64,000 nt of DNA from Roseospira goensis. Its GTDB lineage: Bacteria; Pseudomonadota; Alphaproteobacteria; Rhodospirillales; Rhodospirillaceae. Position 1 is the stretch's first letter, and the number at the start of each line of letters is the position of its first letter. Where the stretch lies: the NCBI RefSeq assembly GCF_014197795.1, contig NZ_JACIGI010000019.1, positions 1 to 64,000 on the forward strand. Reading direction: 5' to 3'. Both the position numbers and the translations under genes were made by a program. The notes beneath the pieces were generated by a model. The model did not search any database. It was not told the origin of the DNA and worked only from the letters and a program-made list of their open reading frames with translations. Shown here piece by piece: positions 21,160 through 55,191 of the stretch.

Positions 21160-21174
21160 GAACATAAGAAGAAC
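21160..21174. promoter_or_regulatory. SOS-like box GAAC-N7-GAAC
   Basis: GAAC at 21160-21163 and GAAC at 21171-21174 are exactly 7 bp apart, the direct repeat bound by alphaproteobacterial LexA. It lies 143 bp upstream of the mraZ -35 and in a less GC-rich stretch. No SOS gene is recognised next to it. About one such match is expected by chance in a window of this size and composition, so the call is tentative. Confidence 0.35.
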
Positions 21175-21451: not shown

Positions 21452-21928
21452 ATGGGGCTGTTCCTGTCCACATTCATCAACAAGGTGGACAGCAAGGGGC
21501 GGGTGTCGGTCCCGGCCACGTTCCGCGCGGCCCTGAAGGAGCAGGAGTTCCAGGGGGTCGTCCTCTATCCGTCCTTCACCGACCCGTGTGTTGAGGGGTG
21601 TGGGATGGACTTCCTGGAACGCTTGAGCGCCGGACTTGAGACACTGCCCGCCTTCTCGGCGGAGCGGGGCAAGCTCAATCGTCTGGTGTTCGCGCGCAGC
21701 GTCCAGCTTCCCTACGACCAGACCGGCCGCATCGTGCTGCCGGCCAAGCTGATGGAGCGCGCCGGCATCACCACCGAGGCTGCCTTCGTCGGGCTCGGCA
21801 AGACCTTCCAGCTTTGGCAACCGGACCGCCACGCCGCCTATGAAGCCGACCTGGAAGCGGCGGCCCTGGCCGACCCGCCGTCGGCGCCTGCGCTGGCCGA
21901 CGTCGCGCCGCGGGGCGCGTCGTCATGA
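21452..21928 (+). CDS. mraZ: Transcriptional regulator MraZ
   Basis: A 158-residue protein of the AbrB/SpoVT-like fold, first gene of the dcw cluster. Two tandem copies of the MraZ domain are seen: the first near [21 protein letters not shown] and the second near [21 protein letters not shown], each with the DxxGR motif used for DNA binding. It should form a multimeric ring and repress its own promoter through the boxes at 21322-21356. A Shine-Dalgarno-like GGAAGG precedes the ATG. Its stop overlaps rsmH by 4 bp. The last 20 residues are an Ala/Pro-rich tail. Confidence 0.95.
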
Positions 21929-52391: not shown

Positions 52392-52561
52392 AACCGGAGC
52401 CGTTGACGCCGATCGCCGAGGCAGGATACCGACGGCGGCGCGGCCCGGCCAGCGCCCGCCCCGGGGCGGGGCGCTGTCCCGGCATCTTTCTCGGCATCGT
52501 GTGATCGTCGCCACAGGCCGGCGCCCAGGGGTGGGGATCGGGGCCGGACTCCGGGCGGGGG

Positions 52562-53596
52562 TCAGGCCGCGGCGGCCACCCCGGCGGCGGCCTCGACCGC
52601 GGCGAGCGCGGTCAGGATCACGTCGGGGCCGGCGCCCGGGCGATGGGCGTGGTCGCTCAGGTGGCGGCGCCAGGCGCGCGCCCCGGGCCGGCCGTGGAAC
52701 AGCGGCAGGATGTGGCGGGTGATGGCCTGGAGGGGCACACCCTCGGCCAGCCGGCGGGTGGCATAGTCGGCCATGGCGCGGGCCACGGCGGCCCGCTCCG
52801 GGGGCGGCGCGGCGGCATCGCCGAACACGACCCGGTCGGCCCCGGCCAGCATCCAGGGTGTCTCGTAGGCGGCGCGGCCGATCATCACGCCGTCAAGGGC
52901 GTTCGGCCCCGCCATCAGGGCCGCCGCCGCCGCCAGATCGCGCACGCCGCCGTTGTAGACCACGCTCACCCCGGGAAACGCCGCCTTCAGGCGCCGCACC
53001 CGCTCCGGCTGCAGGGGCGGGACCTCCCGGTTCTGTTTCGGGCTCAGGCCGGACAGCCAAGCCTTGCGGGCGTGCACGATCACGGTGCGGCAGCCGGCGG
53101 CGGCGAGGTGGTCGACGAATCGGTGCAGGTGATCGTCGCTGTCCAGGTCGTCGATCCCCAGGCGGTGCTTGACGGTCACCGGCCGGTCGGTGGCGGCGAT
53201 CACGGCCGCCACACAGTCCGCCACCAGCGCGGGTTCGGCCATCAGGCAGGCCCCGAAGCGACCGCTGGAAACCCGGTCCGACGGACAGCCGACGTTGAGG
53301 TTGATCTCGTCGTAGCCCCATTGGGTGCCCAGCCGGGCACAGGCTGCCAGCGCGTCCGGATCGCTGCCGCCGAGTTGGAGGGCCAGCGGGTGCTCGGACG
53401 CATCGAAATCCAGGTGGCGGGCGGCATCGCCGTGCAGCAGCGCCCCGGTCGTCACCATCTCGGTGTAGAGCAGCGTGCGCCGGGTGATGCGGCGCAGGAA
53501 GTAGCGGTCGTGCCGATCGGTCCAATCCATCATCGGGGCGACGGACAGGCGGCGATCGAGCGGCGCGGGCGTATGGGCGGCGGCGGGTCCGGTCAT
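52562..53596 (-). CDS. dusA: tRNA-dihydrouridine(20/20a) synthase
   Basis: A 344-residue flavoenzyme that reduces uridine 20/20a in the D-loop of tRNA. It opens with LSVAPMMDWTDRHDRYFLRRI, continues to GYDEINLNVGCPSDRVSSGRFGACLM with the catalytic Cys, then VKHRLGIDD, HARKAWLSGLSPKQNREVPPL and GVMIGRAAYETPW. These match the DusA subfamily. The start at 53596 (MTGPAAAHTPAP) is preferred to one 17 codons upstream. It is divergent from the small SOS-boxed gene. Confidence 0.95.
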   Translation of the reverse strand: MTGPAAAHTPAPLDRRLSVAPMMDWTDRHDRYFLRRITRRTLLYTEMVTTGALLHGDAARHLDFDASEHPLALQLGGSDPDALAACARLGTQWGYDEINLNVGCPSDRVSSGRFGACLMAEPALVADCVAAVIAATDRPVTVKHRLGIDDLDSDDHLHRFVDHLAAAGCRTVIVHARKAWLSGLSPKQNREVPPLQPERVRRLKAAFPGVSVVYNGGVRDLAAAAALMAGPNALDGVMIGRAAYETPWMLAGADRVVFGDAAAPPPERAAVARAMADYATRRLAEGVPLQAITRHILPLFHGRPGARAWRRHLSDHAHRPGAGPDVILTALAAVEAAAGVAAAA

Positions 53597-53680
53597 GCCG
53601 GAAGGATAGGGCGCCCGGCGCCGCGATGCATCCCCGAACCGCTGCACCGTCCCGCCCCGTCATTGCAGTGGCGTTGCGGG

Positions 53681-53709
53681 TTGACCGTGCGTTCTTTCTA
53701 TGTTCTCAT
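53681..53709 (+). promoter_or_regulatory. Promoter with an SOS (LexA) box in the spacer
   Basis: TTGACC (53681-53686), a 17-bp spacer and TCTCAT (53704-53709, four of six -10 bases). Within and overlapping the spacer is GTTC (53691-53694), 7 bp, then GTTC (53702-53705), the alphaproteobacterial LexA direct repeat. A bound LexA would cover the -10. The transcript would run into the short membrane-protein gene starting at 53783, giving a leader of about 65 nt. This box stands in a locally less GC-rich stretch. Confidence 0.6.
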
Positions 53710-53782
53710 TCCTGGCATGGGACCAAAACGGGAACGCGCGCCCGGTCCGGCGCCCGGCTCCCGGTTCACGGAGGCTCCTGCC

Positions 53783-53881
53783 ATGACCGTCGCCGTCCTG
53801 CTGCGCGAGGGGGCTGCCCTCTCCACCCTGTTCCTGACGCTCATTCTGTGGTCGATCGTCGGCCACGCCCTGGTCGGCTGA
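53783..53881 (+). CDS. Small single-span membrane protein, putatively SOS-induced
   Basis: A 32-residue frame beginning MTVAVLLREGAAL and continuing STLFLTLILWSIVGHALVG, with one uncharged hydrophobic segment long enough to span the membrane. GGAGG at 53770-53774 lies 8 nt before the ATG, a strong ribosome site. It is preceded by a promoter with a GTTC-N7-GTTC box. Size, topology and control resemble SidA of Caulobacter (29 residues), an SOS-induced inner-membrane inhibitor of FtsW/FtsN; sequence homology to SidA is not claimed. An in-frame ATG at 53717, without a ribosome site, would give a 54-residue form with a basic tail. The 3' end overlaps the convergent AraC gene by 41 bp. Function is unproven. 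Confidence 0.55.
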   Translation: MTVAVLLREGAALSTLFLTLILWSIVGHALVG

Positions 53882-54779
53882 GGTCGGCTGCGCCAGCCCC
53901 ACCAGCCAACGCCCGCCAGCGCCCCGGCGGCAGCCCGTAGGTGCGCGTGAACTGGCGGGTCATGTGGCTTTGATCGGCGAACCCCGCGCCGCAGGCGGCG
54001 TCCGCCAAAGGCGCGCCACGCCACAGGGCCGCCCGCGCCCGGTCCAGACGCCGCAGCGTCAGGTACCGATAGGGACTGGTGCCGAGGCGGGCGCGGAACT
54101 GGCGGGCCAGGGTGTAGCGGTCGAGTCCGGTCACGGCTTCCAGGTCCGTGGCGTCGACACGGCGCGTGCAGTGCGCCTCCAGGAACGCCCGGGCCTGCTC
54201 CACGGCGCGGGGGCAGGTCGGCGCGGTGCGGCCGCCGCGCGCCGCCGAGGGGTCGAGGGCCAGCAGCGCCTCGGCCAGGGTCATGACCACCTGATCGCGT
54301 GCCAGCGGCTCCAGCGGGTGATCGAGGTCCGCCACCGCCGCCCCGACGGCGAGGGCGAGGCGGGGATCGCCGCTCACCGGCACGCGAACGAATGGCAGGC
54401 CGCGCGCCCGCGCGCCCAGCGCCGCCGCGACGCGGTGCGGCGCCAGGTACACCATGCGGTAGCGGAAGCCGCCTGCCGTGCCGGCCTCGCCGTCATGAAC
54501 CTCGTCCGGATGCAGCACCATCAGACGGCCGGGCGTGCTGGCGGTCCAGGCGCCCCGATACCGGAAGCCCTGGACCCCGGCCAGAGTCACGCCAAGGGCA
54601 TAGCTGTCATGGCGGTGCGGGCCGTAGGCGCGGCCCGAGAAGGCCCCCTCCAGGCGGGGCAGGCCGTCGCCGGGCGGGGCCAGGGTCAGCCGGTCGCCGC
54701 CGCAGGATCGTTCAAGACCCGGCGGCAGCGCGCGGCGTATGGGCTCGGGCTGCGATCCCGAAGCGACAGGTGTTCCCAT
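53841..54779 (-). CDS. AraC-family transcriptional regulator
   Basis: A 312-residue regulator. The N-terminal cupin sensor is seen in SGRAYGPHRHDSYALGVTLAG, with its His-x-His pair, and in PGRLMVLHPDEVHDGEAG. The C-terminal AraC domain has two helix-turn-helix units: VDATDLEAVTGLDRYTLARQFRARLGTSPYRYLTLRRLDRA and LADAACGAGFADQSHMTRQFTRTYG. It is divergent from the DUF2000 gene; the two start codons overlap at 54777-54780 if this ATG is used, so a later start in this gene is possible. AraC-DUF2000 pairs are common in proteobacteria, so it likely controls its neighbour. The inducer is unknown. Confidence 0.88.
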   Translation of the reverse strand: MGTPVASGSQPEPIRRALPPGLERSCGGDRLTLAPPGDGLPRLEGAFSGRAYGPHRHDSYALGVTLAGVQGFRYRGAWTASTPGRLMVLHPDEVHDGEAGTAGGFRYRMVYLAPHRVAAALGARARGLPFVRVPVSGDPRLALAVGAAVADLDHPLEPLARDQVVMTLAEALLALDPSAARGGRTAPTCPRAVEQARAFLEAHCTRRVDATDLEAVTGLDRYTLARQFRARLGTSPYRYLTLRRLDRARAALWRGAPLADAACGAGFADQSHMTRQFTRTYGLPPGRWRALAGGAGAADLSRPGRGRRSTTE

Positions 54780-55191
54780 GCGACACGAGACCAAGATTGC
54801 CGTCGTCGTCCGCGACGACCTCAGGGTGTGGCAGAAGCTCAACGTCGTCGGCTTCCTGGCCGGCGGCCTGGTCGGATCCTATCCGGATCTGGCCGGCGCG
54901 CGCTACAGCGATGCCTCGGGCGGCCTGTACGGCCCGCTGATCCGCCAGCCCGTGCTCGTCTTCGCCGCCGCCGATGCCGCCGCTCTGGCCACCGCGCTGG
55001 CCCGGGCGGTGCGGCGCGGCCTGACGCCGTCGATCTACACGGCGGATCTGTTCGCGACCGGGGCCGACGACGCCAACAGGGCGGCGGTCGCCGCGGTGCC
55101 GACCCCGGCGCTCGACCTCGTGGGTCTGGCGGTCCACGGCCCCCGGGCCGATGTCGACAAGACGGTCAAGGGGCTGGCGCTGCACGGCTAG
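54778..55191 (+). CDS. DUF2000 family protein
   Basis: A 137-residue protein of the DUF2000 family (a peptidyl-tRNA hydrolase-like fold without known catalytic function). MRHETKIAVVVRDDLRVWQKLNVVGFLAGGL, GLYGPLIRQPVLVFAA, and LTPSIYTADLFATGADDANRAAVAAV are family landmarks. The start overlaps the start codon of the AraC gene on the other strand. It probably is the target of that regulator. The Ala-rich middle (AAADAAALATALARAV) is more extreme than usual. Confidence 0.83.
   Translation: MRHETKIAVVVRDDLRVWQKLNVVGFLAGGLVGSYPDLAGARYSDASGGLYGPLIRQPVLVFAAADAAALATALARAVRRGLTPSIYTADLFATGADDANRAAVAAVPTPALDLVGLAVHGPRADVDKTVKGLALHG

Follow-up and report, generated by a model that had tools for sequence, protein, structure and literature searches.

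Judged from its sequence, the 32-codon gene considered here, which lies in a stretch of 64,000 nucleotides of Roseospira goensis DNA (contig NZ_JACIGI010000019.1, positions 1 to 64,000; hereafter the window), belongs to a widespread family of membrane micropeptides under LexA repression. That this family is real, repressed by LexA and presumably translated seems to us hardly open to doubt, and it is apparently undescribed: none of the best-ranked matches in the open literature described the peptide, as judged by the title and the start of the abstract. By analogy with known systems, the peptide probably serves to restrain cell division once DNA is damaged, a role so far overlooked.

Table 1. 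Features of the peptide locus and of the mraZ region, in window coordinates.
Feature	Position	Strand	Basis
-35 element TTGACC	53681..53686	+	read from sequence
LexA operator 1, exact GTTC-N7-GTTC, GTTCTTTCTATGTTC, between -35 and -10	53691..53705	+	pattern match
-10-like element TCTCAT, 17-bp spacer to -35	53704..53709	+	by eye
LexA operator 2, opposed, GACCAAAACGGGAAC, GACC-N7-GAAC on the + strand, one mismatch	53721..53735	-	sequence comparison
GGAGG ribosome site, 8 nt before ATG	53770..53774	+	read from sequence
32-codon gene, predicted single-span membrane micropeptide MTVAVLLREGAALSTLFLTLILWSIVGHALVG, ATG 53783, TGA 53879-53881	53783..53881	+	ORF translation, protein searches, codon analysis
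dusA-type tRNA-dihydrouridine synthase, divergent neighbour; start codon as listed, possibly further in	52562..53647	-	Pfam Dus 2.2e-82
AraC-type regulator, convergent; start codon as listed	53841..54842	-	context, mostly not conserved
Exact LexA box upstream of mraZ	21160-21174	-	pattern match
mraZ, head of an apparent division/cell-wall cluster	21452-21928		Pfam; rsmH-like frame next to it by eye

The original prediction had described a box between -35 and -10 elements, followed by a ribosome site and a 32-codon frame, and all of these were recovered in place (Table 1). Operator 2 lies 30 bp 3' of operator 1 and is degenerate at this locus (one mismatch), and the 3' end of the peptide gene shares 41 nt with the convergent araC-type gene. 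The long frame at 52643-53881 was rejected as a real gene: it lies antisense to dusA, running through it, and resembles a GC artefact. The box had been called the alphaproteobacterial LexA site, and it does match GTTC-N7-GTTC, the LexA motif of Alphaproteobacteria in the available text of two publications (PMC8565304; PMC7987155). LexA is encoded in this genome, and exact boxes also precede its recA and lexA frames, both confirmed by Pfam among the 16 own-genome regions around other boxes that were inspected; a frame from an own-genome box region (L269), scanned over its first 160 residues, gave no Pfam family. Exact boxes number 80 genome-wide, against 28 for the reversed pattern, and three in the window, against 0.65 expected, a count reached in two of 100 shuffles. 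With an exact box in its promoter, the peptide gene is by its operator a predicted member of the LexA (SOS) regulon. A single 15-bp box is weak evidence alone, and it is conservation that renders it solid.

The peptide was detected in six of the seven genomes of the genus, the window's own included, at E ≤ 4.6e-7, the sole genome without a match (G006) being an assembly 88% complete and split into about 750 contigs. A plain protein search against 61 relatives returned matches in 23 of them at E ≤ 10, and a profile of 19 members (A1), run on 298 genomes of the order, matched 162 at E ≤ 1, where many of the weak matches sit inside long frames and have the look of chance. Within the taxonomic family of the window (f1), 42 genomes matched A1 at E ≤ 1.2e-5 and three more weakly (E 0.08-0.96), while at least ten of the genomes listed had no A1 match. 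The peptide is thus not present everywhere: 13 of the 37 f1 genomes in the plain-search set gave no match at E < 1e-3 in the plain or the A1 search, some of them possibly lying outside the A1 sample. Weaker matches, mostly in short frames, extend to other families of the order (f8, f9, f13, f15, f17, f19, f25 and f27) and to f81, outside the order but within the class. A further profile (A2) added f94, f46 and f34, whose scores are weak (E 0.001-0.1), so that their membership rests on the box. When six members were scanned against each of Pfam and NCBIfam no model scored above its cut-off, which fits the earlier remark that no annotation pipeline would call so short a gene; YnaM was the one sub-threshold Pfam match (E 0.072, 13.2 bits against a cut-off of 27 bits). 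No PHROG match at E ≤ 0.01 was obtained for the member P0001 or for one prophage copy, the plasmid records searched gave no match, and the phage records searched gave two Vibrio phage matches at E 6, which are not significant. One copy in a genome of a different family (L213, in G686), near a contig end, closely resembles those of f1; contamination or recent transfer is possible, and this copy was excluded from all counts.

Because the protein searches made no use of boxes, the boxes upstream of the homologues provide an independent test. The 200 bp upstream of 70 distinct matches with upstream DNA were scanned in both orientations, with 9996 stretches from the same loci as background. An exact GTTC-N7-GTTC in either orientation was found upstream of 55 of the 70 matches (0.76% of the background), a site with at most one mismatch upstream of 68 (13%), and exact sites in both orientations upstream of 43 (none of the 9996 background stretches). 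In 42 of the 70 matches a TTGAC stops 4-6 nt short of the box, so that promoter and operator form one unit. Two matches (L138 and L146) were kept in this set though chosen after their boxes were known, and without them the counts become 53/68 for an exact box, 42/68 for both orientations and 41/68 for TTGAC. The set left out five prophage copies, L213, L157 (whose exact box lies on the opposite strand), several matches without upstream DNA, and weak matches, many of them in long frames. For L103 and L104, the latter at a contig edge, the best upstream site had two mismatches. Among the 43 loci of f1, operator 1 is exact in 40 and operator 2 in 39, with both exact in 36 and 26-31 bp apart, so that the layout of promoter and paired operators hardly varies in f1; f81 and f17 differ from f1 in having the opposed site on the upstream side of operator 1. 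The matches in f19, f25 and f9 (L090-L102) have one-mismatch sites only and, since such a site occurs in 13% of the background, the box alone is weak evidence for each of them. The f19 members (L090-L098) share the variant operator TTGTTGCTATTTTGTTC or one near it (GTTG-N7-GTTC, one mismatch), which suggests a LexA with a shifted half-site preference.

The DNA is GC-rich and contains many spurious frames, and the frame might be suspected to have arisen by chance, or to be an RNA element, downstream of a box that is itself either real or fortuitous; the codons and the boxes together make this exceedingly improbable. Over 31 codons in six genomes of the genus, mean pS was 0.48 against a pN of 0.21, and divergence at codon positions 1, 2 and 3 was 0.32, 0.08 and 0.46, values that show purifying selection on the peptide codons. 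Protein searches blind to the boxes, moreover, recovered boxed loci, and on the codon evidence and this association the reading as a chance frame or as RNA only was rejected. In the same-genus alignment a promoter block and a coding block are conserved, with a variable leader between them. The original prediction had named loss of the frame, the ribosome site or the box in close relatives as grounds for abandoning it, and it was not refuted on this count: six of the seven genomes of the genus keep the peptide, each with an exact upstream box, and pN stays well below pS. The SOS-controlled single-span micropeptide that it had proposed is in this way supported at the sequence level, with the peptide under selection.

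The anatomy of the peptide was compared in 27 diverse members of 27-36 residues, the span being judged by eye. E or D holds the column near residue 9 in all 27; by script the first acid falls at residue 9 in 26, one of these being the 36-residue start form, in which the script picked an earlier D, and the aligned E stands at residue 13 in that start form and in the one remaining row. R or K precedes the first acid in 23 of the 27 members, beyond the acidic residue 26 of the 27 rows are free of charge (R, K, D or E), the odd row out being an artefact of the script in the longest start form, and A, L and W columns, including L13 and W23, recur among members. The charge pattern and the recurring columns suggest N-in/C-out insertion with a specific helix partner.

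These features also bear on a different function, that of a SOS-induced, membrane-active toxin which would lower membrane potential and growth and not act on division specifically. TisB of Escherichia coli is a SOS-controlled membrane peptide of this kind, and the window peptide resembles it in its tiny size, single span and predicted LexA control but differs in charge pattern. The resemblance and the difference in charge both extend to DinQ of E. coli, a SOS-controlled membrane peptide according to the available text of PMC3567139. The helix without charges, the acid near position 9 and the column at W23 suggest a specific partner and not a basic amphipathic pore former. No antisense RNA family was found either, the interval 52500-55000 having two Rfam matches at E ≤ 1, both far below the gathering scores, in a search that covered known families only. 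We give a toxin a small chance of being the right answer.

In f1 the divergent upstream neighbour of the peptide gene is dusA in 33 of the 43 loci. The araC-type gene was rejected as a conserved partner, that place being held by dusA; a close match (62%) to the window araC occurs in one further genome of the genus (L057), and a distant one (38%) beside L111, which was also recognized by Pfam. At the checked loci outside f1 the neighbours vary (thioesterase, acyl-CoA dehydrogenase, TRAP transporter, DUF2270, and several without a Pfam family) and the window dusA has no tblastn match, so that the peptide gene together with its LexA operator gives the impression of an SOS unit complete in itself. 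Many peptides of fewer than 50 residues act as small regulatory subunits of membrane complexes, and the adjacency to dusA in f1 could hint at other biology, with the peptide tuning a respiratory, transport, protease or lipid-enzyme complex after DNA damage. We consider such a subunit unlikely, since the varying neighbours outside f1 reveal no partner operon, the LexA box travels with the gene, and the prophage copies agree less well with this function.

Those prophage copies are five in number (L123, L124, L125, L126 and L127), are distributed over three genomes of the genus, and have no exact LexA box within 200 bp upstream. A phage primase (phrog_1139, 3e-278), integrases, a repressor, an anti-repressor and a Sak4-like gene lie around them, not all in each case, together with phage families of unknown function, and the L123 and L127 copies sit between primase and integrase. 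In four of the five, the start codon shares an ATGA with the stop codon of a preceding open frame longer than 100 codons, an arrangement like that of a coupled early operon. The five box-less copies belong to the early modules of temperate prophages, and their presence there is a new observation. In IMG/VR, three contigs (L261-L263) carry such a peptide; one of them and contig G001:C52 are both 10,676 bases long. A division or membrane target fits copies in early modules, as with prophage division inhibitors. Lambda Kil, a small prophage protein that inhibits division, offers a likeness to the five homologues in prophage early regions, with no sequence relation claimed. The same likeness, again with no claim of sequence relation, holds for DicB, a small prophage division inhibitor in the accessible part of PMC10448788.

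From the likeness to SidA, YneA, ChiZ and SosA and from the phage copies, we think it rather probable that the gene encodes a LexA-repressed, 32-residue inner-membrane peptide that inhibits division at the septal wall complex. A LysM domain, such as ChiZ possesses, is absent from the window peptide, which ends at residue 32 and has no Pfam family. As far as the available portions of two publications go, it is an established strategy to act on FtsW or the septal wall complex through SOS-induced single-span proteins: SidA of Caulobacter crescentus, a 29-residue SOS-induced inner-membrane protein, acts through FtsW, with FtsW/FtsN as its target (PMC4211646), YneA acts on FtsW or the septal wall complex, and ChiZ and SosA do so by prediction (PMC13396833). 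The predicted damage-induced single span of the window peptide is common to YneA, ChiZ and SosA, which act or are predicted to act at FtsW; YneA, however, bears an extracellular LysM domain and SosA an extended helix (in the same portion of PMC13396833), whereas the window peptide stops a few residues past its helix.

SidA is resembled in size, single span and predicted LexA control, yet no sequence relation was detected when a profile of 33 rows (A3) was run on four Caulobacter genomes located via RsaA, a comparison that did not involve the letters of SidA themselves. Three of the four gave no match, and the fourth gave two chance-level matches in long frames (best E 1.04), an outcome that fits the suggestion of a peptide independent of, or highly diverged from, SidA. 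With the box as guide, a SidA-like frame was sought at 28 loci of Caulobacter sp. Root343 (135 box places, 100 of them listed) and at 50 loci of G306, G441 and G422; neither set yielded a family-like peptide. The order of G306, selected for a holdfast gene and represented by 96 genomes, yielded 13 genomes with a match at E ≤ 0.5: that of L213 was strong, and the others reached E 0.003 at best and fell almost entirely within long frames. At one locus of Caulobacter sp. Root343 (L246, 165-484) a LexA-type box is succeeded first by a membrane-protein frame some 75-87 residues long, of uncertain start, and then by a 31-residue hydrophobic frame.

RecA-driven self-cleavage of LexA is established SOS logic. 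In undamaged cells, LexA would occupy one operator or both, which span the promoter of the peptide gene and the region where it starts; upon DNA damage its self-cleavage, for which recA and lexA are present with boxes of their own, would free the promoter. The peptide would then insert N-in/C-out, given a basic residue (R or K) ahead of the acid near position 9 and an uncharged helix behind it, and L13 and W23 may contact a membrane-embedded target. The septal cell-wall complex FtsW/FtsI/FtsN appears to be the most likely target, in which case division would be stalled until repair; nothing in the sequence indicates FtsW specifically.

A further exact LexA box of the window lies upstream of mraZ. 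Such a box is found 287-292 bp upstream of mraZ in all six genomes of the genus in which it could be sought, with diverged DNA around it; the seventh assembly stands outside this count, its contig starting inside mraZ. Neither a conserved small membrane frame nor a clear TTGAC promoter was seen at these same-genus loci. The conserved box upstream of mraZ in the window's genus is a new observation, and it could place SOS control near division genes.

A broader picture, which we hold possible and put forward tentatively, is that of an ancient SOS checkpoint peptide that reaches beyond its own order within the class, has been missed by gene finders and is distinct from SidA; temperate phages would carry unboxed early-gene copies of it to hold host division during lytic growth, and in the window's genus it would be paired with the LexA site upstream of the mraZ division cluster. 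To our knowledge, a DNA-damage division checkpoint at the peptide level is known in this class mainly from Caulobacter. The short sequence with its few conserved positions would make mutational mapping easy, and the phage copies would offer a natural second view of the surface used by the peptide. If the proposed function is true, the Caulobacter-type checkpoint would have a widespread and readily testable counterpart, and many genomes would carry a SOS effector of about 30 codons that is absent from the family models scanned.
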